IMG/VR virus record: IMGVR_UViG_3300010883_000543
Span: 1 to 22,658 of that record
Direction: 5' to 3' (one strand)
Source: a virus
Length of the DNA: 22,658 nt
In this document: positions 1 to 9,494 of the stretch, one piece after another
How positions within the stretch are numbered: the stretch's first letter is position 1
Layout: the number at the start of each line of letters is the position of its first letter
The notes under the pieces: model-generated
Told to the model about the DNA's origin: nothing
The model's input: the letters and a program-made list of their open reading frames with translations, nothing else
Databases searched by the model: none
Program-made: the position numbers and the translations under genes

Positions 1-78
1 CAGAAAGAGATAGACAAGTGTGAGGTACGGTGTGCCAACTGTCATAGGATACAAACATATAACAGAAGAACAAAATGA
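1..78 (+). CDS. HNH endonuclease, C-terminal end only (partial)
   Basis: Frame 1 is open from the window edge to a TGA at 76-78 and gives 25 residues. They contain KCEVRCANCHR, with cysteines at local positions 7, 11 and 14. A C-x-N-C-H-R ending followed by a short basic tail is typical of the last zinc-binding/HNH segment of small phage and homing HNH nucleases, which nick or cut DNA. The 5' part, including the catalytic His and Asn, lies outside the window, so activity cannot be judged. The stop overlaps the next start as ATGA, which suggests translational coupling. It is on the + strand, opposite to the virion operon, so it belongs to a different transcription unit. Only the motif is seen; the enzyme class is inferred from it. 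Confidence 0.72.
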   Translation, partial: QKEIDKCEVRCANCHRIQTYNRRTK

Positions 79-323
79 TAGACCAAGAATTATTACAGGA
101 ACTGGAGGACAACGAGTGCCTCCTAGCTGACGGGTTTGATGACGCATTAATAGGTATAACAGAGGGGTCTAACCCTGTCTCTGTTTATGAAACCGATAAA
201 TGTATCGAGGTACTTATGCGTGACCACGAGATGAACCACGAGGAGGCATTAGAGTACTTCTACTTTAATGTAGTGGGTGCGTACGTAGGGGAAAAGACCC
301 CTTTATTCCTACGAACATTATAA
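75..323 (+). CDS. Small conserved phage protein, 82 aa, function unknown
   Basis: This acidic 82-residue protein has a C-terminal half (residues 42-78) with the pattern CIEVLMRDHEMNHEEALEYF followed by FNVVGAYVGEKTPLF. I recognise this pattern from small hypothetical proteins recurrent in many tailed phages, including marine ones, where the signature is roughly EALEYFxxNVxGAYVGExTPxF. No catalytic motif is evident, there is no signal peptide or membrane segment, and the role is unknown. The ATG overlaps the stop of the HNH gene by four bases, so the two are probably co-translated. The gene ends at TAA 321-323, which is the first unit of a TAAGTC tandem repeat; the repeat then presents TAA every second codon in this same frame. 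Its stop overlaps the stop of the giant gene on the other strand. The reading frame is convincing; the function is not assignable. Confidence 0.8.
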   Translation: MIDQELLQELEDNECLLADGFDDALIGITEGSNPVSVYETDKCIEVLMRDHEMNHEEALEYFYFNVVGAYVGEKTPLFLRTL

Positions 324-3300
324 GTCTAAGTCTAAGTCTAAGTCTAAGTCTAAGTCTAAGTCTAAGTCTAAGTCTTTAACTTCTGAAGACCTAGATTTTT
401 TACCTTTACCTTCGTATTTTTTCTCTACAAACTTCTTTAAATCAACAGGCATAGCACTTTTCCCTATACCCATTGCTGCATTTATATTTGCTTCTAAATC
501 TTCACCACCTTCAGCGTAACCAGCCATTATTAAAGCAATAATAGGGTCTATTCGACCCTTCATTATTATATCTAATATCTGTTTAGCAGAAGCTAATGCA
601 TATCCATATCTCTTAACATCTTTTTCAGCTTTTCTAAACATAGATTCATAAGCATTAACATAAGAAGGTCTATATGAGTCTCTTTTATATTCCTCTTCCC
701 CATCACTTACTCCTTGAACAACCCTTCCTGCAATATCTAAACTATTTAACATATATCCAACACTAGGTAGTCTATATAATAAACCTAGGCCTGTCATTGC
801 TATTTTAACATCATAGACTGCCTTCTCTTCATCTTCGTCTGAGCCAAAGAATATTTTAGATATACTGCCCATTGCAGTAAATAACATATTTGCTATTGCA
901 GCCTTGAGTAAAACATCTCTAACGTCCTGTTGTCTAGCTTGTTTTCCTTGCATAGCCGCCCTAGTTATATTTGTAAGGCCTGTTATAGCACTGTTAATTT
1001 GTAAGTATGTTGTACTAGCAAACCCAGTAAGCATAAAAGCAAACACACCTCCTTTAGCTTGAAGTATATTTTTTTCTGTACCTCTCTTTGCTTGTTCAGA
1101 CTGTTCATAATTTTCAAAGTTTTCTAAAGCCTCAGCTTTAGTTAACCCATTCCTTAAGTCAGCGTTATAAGCTGGTACATGACCCAACACACCAAGTAAA
1201 TCTCCAGCTGCTGTAAAGAAACCAGATGCCCTTCTTCTTATATCAGCACTTATATTCCTTCTACTTCTTCTGGCCTCACCTTCTCTAAGATAGGTTCTAG
1301 ACTTTCCTCCAGACTCAAGAGAACCTAACTCTCCTTTAAAGTTTTTTTCTAGTCTTGACTTAAGTGTAGGAGACAGCCTCATCATTTTCCTGATAGGCCC
1401 CTCTATAGGTTTACCATTCTTTCCTTTAATTACAAATCCAGCAAGGTCTTTACTTAACTCTAACATGGTTTTTGATAACTCCAATGTGTACATAGTTAAA
1501 TCAAGAGGAAGACTTACTACACCAGGCAGTTTAGAACGACCACTCTTATTAAGGTTATATCTCTTAAAGCCATTAACCATAGATGAGGCTTGCTTTAATA
1601 CCTGAATTGCTCTATAGCCTAAAACTAATCCAGTAAAAGTAGACTGAGCTTTCTGGTAAGCACTATCTGTTATTGCAGATTGATTTCCCCCAGGATTTAC
1701 AGTGTTATTAATTAATGTATTGAACGACTCTTTCATATTAGGTATAGTAGATACCAGCGCATCTACTGAAGGAATCTTAAAGAAATTGTTTATATCTCTA
1801 ACTGATTCACCAAAAGCTCTAAACCTTGACATGGATGTAAGGTGTTGCTCTAATACTAAAGTAAAACCTCCAGCACTTAACCTTATATCTAACTGCTTAT
1901 CCTTTCTTTCTTTAAGTGCGGAGTCCATCTGTGCATTTAAAGTTTGAAAGTAATTTGCTGATATAGTGTCATCAGAACTAATAGATTTTGTTACTTTCAT
2001 TGTAGGAAAATAGTCTTCAATTCTAGGTAAATTAATACCATTCAATTCTTTATATACCTTATTAACCAGCTCATAGTTATCATAGGTAAGCATGTCTATT
2101 ACATTTTTAGCAAAACCAGTAAGCTTATCTCCAAGAATTTTTTCTATATTTTCAAATTGCTCCTCAGTCATACCCATCTCCTTAAGCTGTGTTCTTTGCT
2201 CAGAGTTTTGGCTCAATGCAAATATTCTAAGTAAGTCATCTGAAGTTAAATAATTAATATTATTCTTTAACTTTAATATAAATGCGTTACTTGCTTTAAA
2301 ACGTTTAAGCAAAGTGGTATTCTGTCTATCTTTTTTAGCTAACTCTGACAATACATCACTATAGTTATTGTAACCTGATTCTTTAGCTATATTATTTAAA
2401 GTGTCTTTAGCTTGCTGTTCATATTTTAAAGCAAGACTTTCAGACTTATTTAATTTTCTGTATACCTCATCTGTAAATAAAGTATAGCCATCAACAACCC
2501 TATCCATAGCGTTAGATAAAGTGTTTAAGCTTATAACATTCTTAGTAAACGATGTTATATAATCAGATATTTTACTATACTTAAAGCTATCTTTAAAGTC
2601 TTTTAAACCTTTTAATAAACCTTTATCGATAAACGTTTTAAATATGCTTTTTATTTTGTTATCAATTTTTTGAGAGTCTAAGACTTTTCCATCCTCTCCA
2701 AACAATAAAGGGTTTGTTTTTTTAATTTGAGAGTTTGCTTTTTCTTTTTGTTCATTTTTTTTCTCAGCCTCCAGTACCTTATTAGCCTTAAGGTTTTCTC
2801 TAAACATTTTACCTTGCTCCTTTATGTTTTTAAGTAAAGATTCAAGGCTCTCTATATCTAAATTATTTAAATCTTTAAACTCATTTAGGGCATAAACCTT
2901 ATTTAATAAAGATTGTTCTTGAACGGTAAGATTTTCACCGTTCATTTCTTTTTCTAATAAAACATCAATATTCTCCGTATCTTCTATAGATTTTTTGAGG
3001 GCTGGGGATAAACCTTGATTAGAAATAGGGTCTATCTTTCCATTAAATATACCTATAACAATAGGTAATATATCCTTAAAGAATTGTATACCTTTGGCAT
3101 CTATACTTTTAGATTTGTTTTTTGAAGCTTTAGATTTTTTAGCTATCAAATCTACAATATTTTTTATAGTGTCTTTCTTTATTATTTTTCGTTGCTCTTC
3201 TATAATTGTTAAAGCTTTGTCTATACTAACTTTAACTGTATCTAAGTCACCCTCAATGATTGTATCTATTAGTTTATTGATTTTATTTTGTGAATAACTT

Positions 3301-6300
3301 TTTGATACAGGTAAATTCTTTCTAATAAAATTACGTATCTCTAGCTGCTTTTCTCTAAGGTTGTTTTCAAACTCATTACCTACTTCTATTTTATTTTTTA
3401 TAGAAGCTATCTCATTTTTTATATTACGGGAACCTCTCTTAATACCATATTCCTCTCTAATAGCACTTTCTAAACCAACAATTAATTCATTTTGTACTTG
3501 GTCCTGCTGGCTTTTAAATATACTATCATTCTTCAGTAAGCTAAGTGCTTTCTTCTGTATTTCAACTAAAGATTTACCTTTATTAAATTTAGCTAACTCG
3601 GTACGTACATTATTAAATAATTTTATAGCCTGGTCTACTCCCCCTTCTATCCTTTCAAACTGTTTAGGTAGAGTGGAGAATAAATCTATATTAACTTCTA
3701 GTGCTGCATCTATCTCGCCCTCTGTATATTTTTCTCTAAACTTTATATCTAAAGGGTTTAATAAAACTTTACGTATAGCTCTTTCGCTATAATCTTTACT
3801 TCTACCTATTTCAATAGCTTGGTTTAGAGACATGTTACGAGGAGAAGTCATAAGTTGTAATTCGTTTGAAAACGATTTTACTTCAGCTTCTTTAAATAGC
3901 TGGGTCTCTGACATTAAATCTACCACTACCGCCTGTGTAAAGTCATCAAGACTCATATCTGCTAACTGTTCAGGTGTCACCTTAGATATACCCGTTAACT
4001 TTTTGATTAGTTCAAATAACTTATCTATCCACTGTACAAATTTAGACTTAATAGCTTCAGTAAACGACTCTCCTTTATCTCCAATTGCTGTAGCTAAAGC
4101 CTCATTTAATATATAATCTCTTATCTCCTGCTCTGTAGAGCCTGTAGCTTTCATGTATTTTATAACACGTTGGTAATCTTTATTATTTTCTATTTGGTTT
4201 ATGTATGTGTCATCCTCCTCAATTAACTCTAAACCTTTTTTATATAATTCTGGTCTAAGTACCTTTGCAGTATTAAGCCATAAGTGACCAAACTCATGTA
4301 TAGGAGTGTTATAATTAGCAAGTGCTGGATTAAGATAAAGCTTCCCTTCGTATACAGCTCCATATATATTTTGGCTCTTAGTTACAAGAACTGTATTTCC
4401 TTTTGATTTACTTCTTATATCTTTAATTATGTTATCAAAATCTTTAGATTCAGTAATAACCTCTAATCCAGGGAATGAACGAGATAGTTTACGTACAAAC
4501 TGAGTGTAACTTTCAGCAGTAGGTTCACTAACTGCGAATGATGTACCAGCTGTCATACTAGCACTACGCATAGAATTACTCTTTGCTTGAGCAGAAGATA
4601 TATTTTTATCTATATTTTCTATCTTAGTAATAGCACCTAACTCTTTTTCTATTAAAGTTTTAGTTTTAGTTTTATTACTCTCTGGTATACTTATCTCTCT
4701 CTCTGTTTTATCCGTATCTTTAAGACTTATTAACTCTATAAGCCTAGTTCCATTAGGGTTGTTAGAAACTTTAACCACCCTATTTTTACCACCTATTGTA
4801 ACTGTATATTTTTCTTTTTGTTTAATAATACCAGCCACCTTAAGATTTATATCGTTAAGATACTTCTTATTTAGATTCCAGAATGGTAAAGTCTCCTTCA
4901 TTATACCCACAATCCTTCCTCTAATGTATACTGGGTAGTTAGTATGAGGTGGAAGGCCTTCCTTTTTTTGTTGGTCAAGGCTTATTAAGGCTTCGTCTAT
5001 TGTATCCTTAGTTACTGGTTTACCTGCTTTATCTGTTATTTGGAGTACACTTGTAATAGCTCCCATAGGTAGCTCACTTACAAACTGCTCTATGTTTTCA
5101 CCTCTAATAGACTCCTTACTGATACCCATATCTTGAAATAGCTTACCTATTTCTGTAGTAGCATTTACTTCACTTGATGGTAACACCTTATTAAATATCT
5201 CTGCTCTTATATCAACACCTAGTGTAGCAAACCCCTGGGCAAACTCATTTATATTATTAGACTCTGTAGCTATTTTCTTTACTACAGGAGTCATTTCTCC
5301 GTTTTTACCAAACTTAGAAGCTTTTACCTGTTTCATCATTGCATCAAATAACTCCTGAGAGTTTTCAGCTTTGACTACTTTTTCTATTAAAGTGTTCAGG
5401 GTAACTTGATTAGAGTCTAATGCTGATGGGTTCATATTATATACCACAGTATAATCTGCATTAACCGCACCTTTTATTATCTCTCTAGCAGAAGCCTCAT
5501 CAATAGAAGCCCATGCTACCTTTCCAAATAGTTTTTTTATTAATGGAAAGAAAGGACCACCCATTCTTTTTTTATCTACCTTTAACTGGTCTGCCATAGC
5601 TAAGTTTATTCTCTTACCTATCAAGTCTTTTAGACCCATCTTCTTAACCTTTTCTGCAAGCTCTGTGTTTTCTTTTATAACTACAGTGTATACCTTAGCT
5701 TTTTTATCTATACTAACTGTCTGTACATCCTCACTTAACTTATCTTGCATACTCTCTACTATAGTGGTAGCTATTTTAACTAGTTTATTGGTTTTCTTAT
5801 TAGATTTTAGATTAATTTTATCTGTCAGAACTTTACGTTCAGCTCTTAGCTTAGTATTAATTTTGCTTTTAGCTTCTTTTGTTAAGGTTTTATCTCTTGT
5901 GACCTGACCTAGTTTCTTATCTATAGCCTTTATTTCAGGAGTGGCAGGCTCGCTAGACAACATAAACTGTGGGCTACCATCACTACTGTTTAGTACTTCC
6001 CTTAAATCCTTAGCTTCTTCTTCTAAAGCTACTTCCGTTTCCTCTGTTTCGCTAACTTTAGTCGGGTCCGCTTCTTGGGTTGTTTCCTGTTTGGTAGTGA
6101 TATCAAGCTCTGTGTCTCCTTCTCCCATTTCTGGGCTAACTCTGGTAGATTCTTGTGCATCCACCGTCTCTGTGCTTTGCTTAGGAATGGCATCTAGTTT
6201 AGTTTTTAGTTTTTTAATTTTTCTATCTATCGCTCTTCGTTCTTTCTTTGCTTCTTTTATATTATAGTTAGAGTTCTCTATTTCATTATCAGCATCTTCT

Positions 6301-9300
6301 TTTAAGTCTTTTTTTTCATCTTTAATTTCCTCTATTCTATCATCTCTTTCTTCTTTAGATAATGACTTATCTGCTCTAACTTTTTTTATCTCTTCGTTCT
6401 TCTCAGCAATTTCTTCTTTTAACTCTCCCTTGAGGTTTGATATCTCAACCTCACTATCCTCTATAGTAAACGCTGTGTCTCCGCTATCCATCTCAGATTC
6501 TAACTCTGCTATCTCATCTGTTAGGACTTCTTGTTCCTCTGTAAGTTTCACTTCAGTTTCTGGAGCTTCCTCTACTACTTCTTCTGTAGTCTTTGGTTGT
6601 ACAGCTGAAGGATTAATACTAGGACCTGCATCAGATTTAGTTTGTGATGATGGTCTACCTGTTACCTCAACGCCTAGTTGAGATAATACATCTGCATCAG
6701 CATCTGACTGCTCTTTTGTTTGTGTTTCTGCTGGAGTTTCTTCTGTTAGTTTCTCAAGAGCTTTATCAATCTCTGCTATTTTTTCGTTTTCTTTTTTTAC
6801 TAAAAATTGAGACTTACCATCTATAGTATTTTCTATCTTCTGCTTTTCTATTAATAAATTAAAAGCTTCAGTCTTATTATTTATTTCTGCAGGTATAGAC
6901 CTCATTGTACCTGACATTGTTTTAAAATCATTCAAGACACTTTGTGCTTGATTCTTTGTCATGTTACCTTGAAGTATATTAGTCTTCAATGTCTTAACAA
7001 AATCTTGCCTTAACCTTGGGCTATTAGCCTCATACCATAACGCATCAAATAAAGGTTTCTGCATGTAGGAACTTTTTACTCCATCAAGAACCATATTAGG
7101 GGCTACCATAGCACCCTTCATAAGAGCACCACCAATAGCCTCTAACTTTGTAGCTTCCCCAACATTTTCAAGTCTTGCTTTAACACCTTCAGGTACTCTA
7201 TATATAGGTATACCGTTAGTTTTATTATAAAAATCTTTTACCCCTATATCCACAACCTGCTGTGCAAAACCTGTCTCTCCCTCTACTAATGAACCACCAA
7301 CAATTCTAACAGCCCCATTAACAAGAAGACTGTTAGTCTCTGCAGCGACTAGTTTTTCAAAAGCAGTCTTAGTCATACCAGCACTAGACTTTTTAAACAC
7401 ATTCTTAATAACCTTACTTAAAAATGTTCTACCTAGAGCATTCTTAGCAAACATAGTTCTCAAACCATAGTTTTCTAATGCAGCTTGAATCACACCTATA
7501 CTTCCCCCTACTAAAAATAAGTCAGAAAGAGGCATATCTTTCCAGTCAGGATTCTTCATCCACTCACTAGCTACCGTTTCATAAGCCTGCCCAAATAAAC
7601 CAATAGGGACACCACCAACTCTAGTTACCATAGCTGGAAGAGATTTTAACACACCCATAGCAGCCTTCTCAACATCCGTTCTCTCCTCAGAGTTCATGTA
7701 TTCCTCTGTGGTTGTAGACCCAAGGTTATCAACTAAAGACCCTCTAATATATTTCTCAACAGCCTCCATTTTATCTTTTCGGCTCATGCTTCTTTTATCA
7801 AAACTTTTACGACTTGCTCTTATTGATTTTTTAGAGTCTAAAGATACCCCTAGGTATTCAAATAGGTCGTGAGACCCCTGGGAAAGCATGTAGTCAAGCC
7901 AATCCTCAGCTCCTAGATAACCATCAGTAATACCTATACCCATATTCTCTAAACCTACAAGTATACTATTTCCTAGAAAACCTAATGTAGTACCCGACTG
8001 TTCGTCACGTATAGCGTTTTGTTTTATACCGTAACCAGCAGCAAAGTTAATATCATTTTGAAGCCTTGCTGTTTCTGTCAGTATAGACTGTTGTTTTTTA
8101 TAACTATCTACTAAGGATTGACGCTTTAATTCTTCCTCTTCAGTAAGACTTCCTACCTGTGCTTCGAGTACATCAAACACAGATATCTCTTTGAATAACT
8201 TATTTTGATAAGTCTTTATATCTACTAACCTTTGCGAGGTCTGGTCTAAAAATTGATTATATATTTCTTTACTTACTGCAGAGGGCTGGTCACGCATCAA
8301 TGTAAGTACTGCGGATGGGTCTAACTGTTTTCCATCTCTTAATTGTTCAAATACATTACCTATTAATTTTACACCTTCAGCTTCTTTTTTTATATCCGTA
8401 AACTCCATACCTTCAGGTAAGGATATATCATCCTCCTGAGTATTTCTATTTTTCCATAGATAATCTTCAAGGTCTTTTTTAGTTCTTGCGTTTTCTGTTT
8501 TGTTAACAACATTTAAATCAACGTATAAAGGGTCTCCTGTTTCTGACTCTACAATCATGGCATCCCCCATCCCTGTCTTTTTAAACGTGAAACCATACTT
8601 ACCATAGGAGTCTGTCATAACTTCAACAGCCCTGTCTTCATCATACTCTTTAAGGAAATCAATATTTACATTATCCTGCCCTGGTATTGCTGATAGGTAC
8701 TCGTCTTTTTCTTGAGTGATAGCATCCTGCTCAAACTTAAAGTCATCGCTAGCCATGTACTTATTAGTGGCAGAAAATATATCTTCCTTATCACCTATAG
8801 ACTCCTTAGTCCCCTCTATATTATTCTGTAGTTTATCTATCTCTTTCTGAAAATCTGAAGATACTGCTTCATACTCAGGTGTATCCATTTTACCCTGGGA
8901 TTCAAGGTCAGATAAAGCGTCTTGCTTATCCGCCTCTACTTGTTGAAGGGCACGTTCTTCTTGAGATAGCTTATCTTGAGTCTCACCAACAGAAGACAAC
9001 CCTTCTGGAGCATACTTAGCCTGCCATTCACTTAACTCATCCTTATACATACCTTGACCTATAAGGTCAGACCCAAAGTCTTCAGGTTTAGGTGCGGGCG
9101 GTATATCTTTAGAAAAAGCTTGAGAACCTCCAACACCAAATGATTGTGGTTGTTTTTTAAATACGTCACTCTCGTATTGCTCCTCTATTACATCTGATAC
9201 AGAGCTAAGTATTGGTACTTGAACTGAAGAATCCGATGAGCCAGTAGGAGCCGTCTCTGTTCCTGTAACGGAATCCGTAACTTCCTCTTCTGAAGTAGGC

Positions 9301-9494
9301 TGAAAACTTTCGTTTTTTTTTACTAAAGCACTAAAATCTTCTGCTGAACCTAAAACATCTTCGCCAAATGCTTGATAAAAATCATTTATATAAGAGTCGT
9401 CACTACTTATTAGTCTTCTAAAGTCTTCAAGCACACCAAACTTATCAGCTCCTCCTAGTTGATTGTATAAATCATCTATATAGTCGTCATTCAT
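318..9494 (-). CDS. Giant virion/ejection protein, 3058 aa, with zincin-like metallopeptidase motif
   Basis: This last gene of the virion operon occupies the place of T7 gene 16. Visible parts, in order: two 30-residue repeats at 5-29 and 35-58 (YIDDLY..LG..EDF); an acidic, low-complexity stretch to about 130; hydrophobic, glycine-rich helices around 530-560 and 619-645; a Glu/Thr/Pro-rich linker around 915-1000; a highly charged coiled coil around 1008-1100; an MGGPFFPL segment at 1311; a zincin motif HEFGHLW at 1733-1739 with a candidate third ligand Glu1798 in NEALA; long Lys-rich helices around 1900-2400; a conserved-looking C-terminal block with LGYRAIQVLKQASSM near 2625; a basic stretch near 2720-2755; and hydrophobic segments at about 2815-2837 and 2857-2885. 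It ends in (DL)9. The architecture resembles large polyvalent phage proteins and ejected virion proteins. I infer packaging in the capsid, entry with the DNA, and membrane contact, with proteolysis of the host or of itself. I did not see the DFDGD-type motif of crAss-like virion RNA polymerases. The ATG at 9494 lies 11 nt after the upstream stop. Confidence 0.85.
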   Translation of the reverse strand: MNDDYIDDLYNQLGGADKFGVLEDFRRLISSDDSYINDFYQAFGEDVLGSAEDFSALVKKNESFQPTSEEEVTDSVTGTETAPTGSSDSSVQVPILSSVSDVIEEQYESDVFKKQPQSFGVGGSQAFSKDIPPAPKPEDFGSDLIGQGMYKDELSEWQAKYAPEGLSSVGETQDKLSQEERALQQVEADKQDALSDLESQGKMDTPEYEAVSSDFQKEIDKLQNNIEGTKESIGDKEDIFSATNKYMASDDFKFEQDAITQEKDEYLSAIPGQDNVNIDFLKEYDEDRAVEVMTDSYGKYGFTFKKTGMGDAMIVESETGDPLYVDLNVVNKTENARTKKDLEDYLWKNRNTQEDDISLPEGMEFTDIKKEAEGVKLIGNVFEQLRDGKQLDPSAVLTLMRDQPSAVSKEIYNQFLDQTSQRLVDIKTYQNKLFKEISVFDVLEAQVGSLTEEEELKRQSLVDSYKKQQSILTETARLQNDINFAAGYGIKQNAIRDEQSGTTLGFLGNSILVGLENMGIGITDGYLGAEDWLDYMLSQGSHDLFEYLGVSLDSKKSIRASRKSFDKRSMSRKDKMEAVEKYIRGSLVDNLGSTTTEEYMNSEERTDVEKAAMGVLKSLPAMVTRVGGVPIGLFGQAYETVASEWMKNPDWKDMPLSDLFLVGGSIGVIQAALENYGLRTMFAKNALGRTFLSKVIKNVFKKSSAGMTKTAFEKLVAAETNSLLVNGAVRIVGGSLVEGETGFAQQVVDIGVKDFYNKTNGIPIYRVPEGVKARLENVGEATKLEAIGGALMKGAMVAPNMVLDGVKSSYMQKPLFDALWYEANSPRLRQDFVKTLKTNILQGNMTKNQAQSVLNDFKTMSGTMRSIPAEINNKTEAFNLLIEKQKIENTIDGKSQFLVKKENEKIAEIDKALEKLTEETPAETQTKEQSDADADVLSQLGVEVTGRPSSQTKSDAGPSINPSAVQPKTTEEVVEEAPETEVKLTEEQEVLTDEIAELESEMDSGDTAFTIEDSEVEISNLKGELKEEIAEKNEEIKKVRADKSLSKEERDDRIEEIKDEKKDLKEDADNEIENSNYNIKEAKKERRAIDRKIKKLKTKLDAIPKQSTETVDAQESTRVSPEMGEGDTELDITTKQETTQEADPTKVSETEETEVALEEEAKDLREVLNSSDGSPQFMLSSEPATPEIKAIDKKLGQVTRDKTLTKEAKSKINTKLRAERKVLTDKINLKSNKKTNKLVKIATTIVESMQDKLSEDVQTVSIDKKAKVYTVVIKENTELAEKVKKMGLKDLIGKRINLAMADQLKVDKKRMGGPFFPLIKKLFGKVAWASIDEASAREIIKGAVNADYTVVYNMNPSALDSNQVTLNTLIEKVVKAENSQELFDAMMKQVKASKFGKNGEMTPVVKKIATESNNINEFAQGFATLGVDIRAEIFNKVLPSSEVNATTEIGKLFQDMGISKESIRGENIEQFVSELPMGAITSVLQITDKAGKPVTKDTIDEALISLDQQKKEGLPPHTNYPVYIRGRIVGIMKETLPFWNLNKKYLNDINLKVAGIIKQKEKYTVTIGGKNRVVKVSNNPNGTRLIELISLKDTDKTEREISIPESNKTKTKTLIEKELGAITKIENIDKNISSAQAKSNSMRSASMTAGTSFAVSEPTAESYTQFVRKLSRSFPGLEVITESKDFDNIIKDIRSKSKGNTVLVTKSQNIYGAVYEGKLYLNPALANYNTPIHEFGHLWLNTAKVLRPELYKKGLELIEEDDTYINQIENNKDYQRVIKYMKATGSTEQEIRDYILNEALATAIGDKGESFTEAIKSKFVQWIDKLFELIKKLTGISKVTPEQLADMSLDDFTQAVVVDLMSETQLFKEAEVKSFSNELQLMTSPRNMSLNQAIEIGRSKDYSERAIRKVLLNPLDIKFREKYTEGEIDAALEVNIDLFSTLPKQFERIEGGVDQAIKLFNNVRTELAKFNKGKSLVEIQKKALSLLKNDSIFKSQQDQVQNELIVGLESAIREEYGIKRGSRNIKNEIASIKNKIEVGNEFENNLREKQLEIRNFIRKNLPVSKSYSQNKINKLIDTIIEGDLDTVKVSIDKALTIIEEQRKIIKKDTIKNIVDLIAKKSKASKNKSKSIDAKGIQFFKDILPIVIGIFNGKIDPISNQGLSPALKKSIEDTENIDVLLEKEMNGENLTVQEQSLLNKVYALNEFKDLNNLDIESLESLLKNIKEQGKMFRENLKANKVLEAEKKNEQKEKANSQIKKTNPLLFGEDGKVLDSQKIDNKIKSIFKTFIDKGLLKGLKDFKDSFKYSKISDYITSFTKNVISLNTLSNAMDRVVDGYTLFTDEVYRKLNKSESLALKYEQQAKDTLNNIAKESGYNNYSDVLSELAKKDRQNTTLLKRFKASNAFILKLKNNINYLTSDDLLRIFALSQNSEQRTQLKEMGMTEEQFENIEKILGDKLTGFAKNVIDMLTYDNYELVNKVYKELNGINLPRIEDYFPTMKVTKSISSDDTISANYFQTLNAQMDSALKERKDKQLDIRLSAGGFTLVLEQHLTSMSRFRAFGESVRDINNFFKIPSVDALVSTIPNMKESFNTLINNTVNPGGNQSAITDSAYQKAQSTFTGLVLGYRAIQVLKQASSMVNGFKRYNLNKSGRSKLPGVVSLPLDLTMYTLELSKTMLELSKDLAGFVIKGKNGKPIEGPIRKMMRLSPTLKSRLEKNFKGELGSLESGGKSRTYLREGEARRSRRNISADIRRRASGFFTAAGDLLGVLGHVPAYNADLRNGLTKAEALENFENYEQSEQAKRGTEKNILQAKGGVFAFMLTGFASTTYLQINSAITGLTNITRAAMQGKQARQQDVRDVLLKAAIANMLFTAMGSISKIFFGSDEDEEKAVYDVKIAMTGLGLLYRLPSVGYMLNSLDIAGRVVQGVSDGEEEYKRDSYRPSYVNAYESMFRKAEKDVKRYGYALASAKQILDIIMKGRIDPIIALIMAGYAEGGEDLEANINAAMGIGKSAMPVDLKKFVEKKYEGKGKKSRSSEVKDLDLDLDLDLDLDLDLDL
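321..374. repeat. Hexanucleotide tandem repeat (TAAGTC)9
   Basis: There are nine perfect head-to-tail copies of TAAGTC, 54 bp in all. Read on the - strand they are GACTTA codons and encode nine Asp-Leu pairs, residues 3041-3058 of the giant protein, directly before its TAA stop at 318-320. Read on the + strand in the frame of the 82-aa gene, they give TAA GTC TAA GTC and so on, which is the gene's stop plus eight more in-frame stops. The unit is a multiple of three and lies inside the - strand stop, so gain or loss of copies would change only tail length. Perfect identity suggests recent slippage expansion. An assembly artefact in copy number cannot be excluded. Confidence 0.95.

Follow-up and report, generated by a model that had tools for sequence, protein, structure and literature searches.

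A perfect hexamer array at the 3' end of a giant phage gene, a likely recent repeat expansion in a variable protein tail

The gene for a giant mosaic protein of 3058 residues, carried by a phage related to those of Bacteroidota, ends in nine perfect copies of a six-base unit that append nine Asp-Leu dipeptides to the protein. The window analyzed here is the whole of virus record IMGVR_UViG_3300010883_000543 (22,658 nucleotides; 22.7 kb), which is probably a fragment. The array is likely a recent, slippage-type growth of the GACTTA unit in a tolerant and fast-changing tail of the giant protein. Under this explanation, a GACTTA (Asp-Leu) unit located among the final codons of the giant would have been expanded by polymerase slippage or unequal recombination without effect on the frame. 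The expansion may have persisted because the tail appears to lack structure and to tolerate change, and because growth in steps of 6 bp spares both the giant frame and the stop of a convergent 82-aa gene. The gene end itself may act as a seam, at which the bodies of such genes are swapped while the last codons remain with the downstream neighbor.

The giant protein and its genomic setting

The phage in the window is podovirus-like, with relatives among the Bacteroidota phages (Elemovirus, Pachyviridae). On its minus strand are genes with matches to virion structural families and to a crassvirus muzzle C-terminal domain. Relatives of its 1764-aa structural protein occur in Elemovirus and Cellulophaga phages, which makes a Bacteroidota host likely; a search for relatives of the adjacent 738-aa protein retrieved none. 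The giant gene (318..9494, minus strand) closes the virion module, and a giant fills the same slot in the relatives examined. The gene before the giant also has a low-complexity end in two loci, L114 (9606-11240, EEEEEEE) and L201 (8485-10533, GGGGGGG).

The giants are strongly mosaic, with blocks of 90-98% identity in otherwise unrelated contexts beside regions without similarity (L112-L118, L199-L216), as exemplified by L113 and L116 over residues 110-955 (92%). Very large size, mosaicism and blocks common to different contexts are traits of polyvalent proteins, and the window giant is polyvalent-like. An HExxH zincin-like motif (HEFGH, residue 1733; 4284..4298, minus strand) is present in it and in most giants, with Peptidase_M78 appearing only below the cut-off, in L112. 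A Pfam search of the window giant returned no significant domain, and DUF3293 was found in the Elemovirus giant. The protein in the same slot in Cellulophaga phage phi18:3, gp123, is a virion protein according to its MS/MS annotation and has no direct sequence match to the window giant, which is itself probably virion cargo.

A tract repeated at the level of DNA

The array (TAAGTC)9 occupies 321..374 without a mismatch, and a repeat count over 321-375 gives 9.2 perfect copies. Read on the minus strand it is (GACTTA)9, or (Asp-Leu)9, so that the giant ORF terminates in ...SEVK(DL)9, with its stop codon (318..320, minus strand) outside the array; read on the plus strand it presents nine in-frame TAA triplets. 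A preliminary description had reported the nine perfect units, both readings and the stop outside the tract, and each element is confirmed in the sequence. It was also right that a frame-neutral hexamer in a terminal coding segment can change its copy number without a frameshift. The longest run of period-6 matches spans 49 positions and is far beyond chance, since none of 100 dinucleotide-preserving shuffles exceeded 11. Across the 1.73 Mb of phage loci retrieved, no perfect hexamer array reached five copies, a count that leaves out the loci fetched for the TAAGTC pattern itself.

All 18 codons of the tract are either GAC (nine Asp) or TTA (nine Leu), while elsewhere in the giant gene GAC serves 28% of Asp and TTA 50% of Leu; under that codon usage, 18 uniform codons have a probability of about 2e-8. 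Such uniformity implies repetition at the DNA level. Had selection acted on the peptide for long, synonymous changes would have accumulated; the array is therefore recent or homogenized, and the uniform codons could alternatively be those of a functional array kept homogeneous. Perfect units, uniform codons and the lack of any counterpart in homologues together mark the tract as a likely slippage-type expansion. A search with the TAAGTC-tract pattern alone returned eight contigs; their arrays occur in contexts unrelated to one another and, depending on the frame, encode Lys-Ser, Ser-Leu, Arg-Leu or Asp-Leu, so that the hexamer by itself is no sign of family membership. The predicted RNA structure of the tract is no better than that of shuffles, and promoter and terminator scans placed no terminator at the tract. 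Terminator-like hairpins do occur within coding sequence, at 287-302 and 543-559 of the window (in the first 1.5 kb there are four, where 0.6 would be expected).

The window derives from a metagenomic contig and the tract starts 321 bases from the contig end, circumstances in which an assembly artifact at the repeat might be suspected. The 54 bp are below usual read lengths, though, and the arrangement of an 82-aa gene convergent on the giant ORF recurs in five other, independent contigs, where the giant gene ends at -5 to +21 nt relative to the 82-aa stop. That recurrence makes a chimeric join at the repeat unlikely, and we regard an artifact as very improbable.

The convergent gene and its stop codons

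The 82-aa gene (phrog_13182; 75..323, plus strand) has the array's first TAA as its stop (321..323, plus strand), and it overlaps the giant gene by six bases (TTATAA). In its frame every second codon from 321 through 369 is TAA, which makes nine altogether. This had led to the proposal of a fail-safe stop array, selected against readthrough of the 82-aa gene into giant antisense, and the tandem TAATAA at the end of this gene in some relatives might seem to agree with it. Any gain from stops beyond two is implausible. A 6-bp unit that contains TAA produces in-frame stops automatically, which makes the nine stops a by-product, and L112, the closest relative (82-aa protein 91% identical), manages with one TAG and no in-frame stop array after it; the remaining relatives have TAATAA at most. 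Selection for the stops is therefore extremely unlikely, and the suggestion that one tract is designed to serve two genes finds no support. Immediately upstream of the 82-aa gene, the window (1-78), L112 (1-450) and L113 (1367-1766) carry a gene that ends in an HNH-type motif (CxxCH...); standing beside an apparent exchange seam in three phages, it is a possible nuclease gene, as judged from its motif.

A conserved core followed by a variable tail

Conservation extends to about residue 3016 of 3058, where the family has its GIS-SYRP motif. An alignment of 58 rows and the AlphaFold2 model built from it delimit a conserved helical C-terminal core at residues 2560-3016 (447..1817, minus strand), beyond which lies a variable tail of about 42 residues that includes the DL array (321..446, minus strand). 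In the model pLDDT falls below 50 over the last 29 residues, and the tail beyond the core is probably disordered. Relatives of the core were found in 50 distinct contigs. A fold search gave a structural protein of Tenacibaculum phage Gundel_1 as the best named match to the core, and a PDB fold search with the core gave no significant match.

Past the GIS-SYRP motif the tails range from about 11 to more than 100 residues, and some subgroups have a common tail while most do not. No DL tract was found among about 80 distinct syntenic or homologous C-termini (27 giants; 50 distinct core homologues), and a scan of genome contigs for the core yielded four relatives, none with a DL tail. The comparison of C-termini that had been proposed as a check for DL tails of varying length in homologous giants thus found none. 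Unrelated homologue C-termini devoid of the tract had been named beforehand as grounds for abandoning the proposals, and this is what the homologues have; the result counts against the functional claims and leaves the existence of the tract untouched. Closest in character to the DL array are the tails of L265 (DIDTNVDIDTDFETNVDF) and L263 (IDLDLED). L265 and L286, which have the same core, also carry C-termini with other repeated acidic-hydrophobic motifs (DIDTDFETNVDF; GGIEMTMD...GGIEIEMD), and these too are among the ends most like the DL tail.

These data bear on the idea of a sorting tail, in which the DL array would be a multivalent short linear motif that docks the giant cargo, targeting it into the capsid or tail or holding it until ejection. 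The same-slot protein is present in phi18:3 virions, and short repeated motifs follow a lysine-rich stretch in L200 and L209 (DNRIFK-type), L204 (MFDD), L116 (EFEE...EFIE) and L265 (DIDTDF). No motif is common to the tails, however; acidic-hydrophobic alternation is not enriched in 81 distinct tails (5 against 5.1 expected from composition shuffles), and homologues that share the core end in unrelated tails, of which some span just 11-14 residues. With no DL tail in the homologues compared, a sorting function appears unlikely, and growth of the unit by slippage remains the preferred account. A point against that account is that the DL tail is half leucine, in a family whose tails contain few hydrophobic residues, and so is not a typical neutral tail.

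What preceded the growth may be glimpsed in the collapsed gene end. Reduced to one unit, the end of the giant gene in the window reads GTTAAAGACTTATAATG and the L112 counterpart reads GTTAGACTATAATG; among 109 gene ends in an anchored comparison that of L112 comes first, though by a narrow margin, and an unanchored test gives p 0.14. A single ancestral unit, as L112 would have it, is plausible, the likeness being only suggestive. No relatives of the window phage emerged from a DNA-level search of annotated phages, nor did scans of viral contigs with the last 699 residues of the giant or with flank plus tract produce matches, and no sibling record of this phage, hence none with a different unit number, was present among the records searched. 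A contingency tract, in which the unit number often shifts within a population and thereby tunes the protein, would accord with the instability expected of long perfect arrays and with a unit that is a multiple of three. On the other side, a frame-neutral unit makes on/off switching of the gene impossible, and the giant gene end shows no change in length in the rows listed of 68 Elemovirus records, which lack the tract. We assign this role a low probability, below that of a sorting tail.

Tandem repeats as a trend of giant tails

The DL array is an extreme within a broader pattern, as giant tails are enriched for tandem repeats across the family. The strongest tandem array of the giant falls inside its last 180 nt in 7 of 27 giants against 0.6 expected (p 1.6e-6), the window being one of the seven and the case from which the test arose; leaving it out gives 6 of 26. 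Control genes from the same loci have their best array in the last 180 nt in 5 of 35 cases, against 4.9 expected. In a second set of 50 C-termini, which overlaps the first in a few contigs, the count is 9 against 3.0 expected (p 0.003). These p-values are optimistic, because contigs were counted as independent after removal of near-duplicates and some tails are nonetheless related (L200, L209). Unit lengths in the first set are 6, 12, 18, 26, 30 and 33 bp, so that most, though not all, are divisible by three.

The gene end as a possible recombination seam

Several pairs of phages differ on one side of the giant gene end and agree on the other. L114 and L117 have common tail DNA (GATACGAGAGGTAGA before the stop) and unrelated bodies upstream. 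In the cultured phages phi46:3 (gp121) and phi19:3 (gp129) the last 24 nt are common and the preceding sequence is different. The window has its C-terminal body in common with L116 and not its tail; with L112 it has unrelated C-terminal bodies and a similar N-terminal part of the giant and 82-aa gene. Comparisons of this kind indicate that tail and body can be inherited separately, and their simplest reading would be that recombination replaces the bodies of giant genes with one joint in the last codons. In Cellulophaga phage phi46:3 two genes occupy the giant slot (L221, 1439-5758 and 6078-7958); gp120 retains the N-terminal 1038 residues, and the common C-terminal residues KEKTNPK recur at the end of the separate, unrelated gp121.

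A more ambitious proposal is that the 3' end of giant cargo genes is a diversity-generating seam. Recombination within the last codons would exchange bodies, the joint would repeatedly gain in-frame repeats, and each lineage would thereby receive a new tail, perhaps as a handle for packaging or ejection, with (DL)9 as the most extreme case. In this full form the proposal is speculative and rather unlikely to hold.

Comparison with known systems and implications

In-frame microsatellite and low-complexity expansions are known from prokaryote and phage proteins (PMC6821194) and, like the tract, consist of short in-frame repeats outside a folded domain. Such repeats have been ascribed to slippage and recombination, and that survey finds hydrophobic residues under-represented in such regions; the window array differs in being half leucine and in its placement at the overlap of two convergent genes. 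The giants themselves resemble two classes of large phage proteins. Polyvalent proteins of phages and conjugative elements (PMC5512222) are likewise very large and mosaic, have an HExxH zincin-like motif and are encoded among virion genes, although without a significant Pfam domain in the window giant the named polyvalent domains were not identified in it. The crassvirus cargo proteins (PMC10172136) are also large and encoded with ring and muzzle-type virion genes, and a neighbor of the window giant contains the crassvirus muzzle C-terminal domain; in contrast, no sequence match to them was found and the genomes are smaller (relatives of about 60 kb).

Taken alone, the tract is an ordinary expansion of an in-frame repeat, though an extreme one. 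Its setting is of greater use, as it points to a widespread phage group whose giant virion-type proteins are built of exchangeable blocks, with a last 20 to 60 residues that change fast, acquire tandem repeats with greater frequency than the remainder of the gene and can be inherited separately from the body. The ends of these giant genes therefore offer a concrete site for studying how large cargo proteins are swapped, and cultured relatives exist (Elemovirus, Cellulophaga phages).
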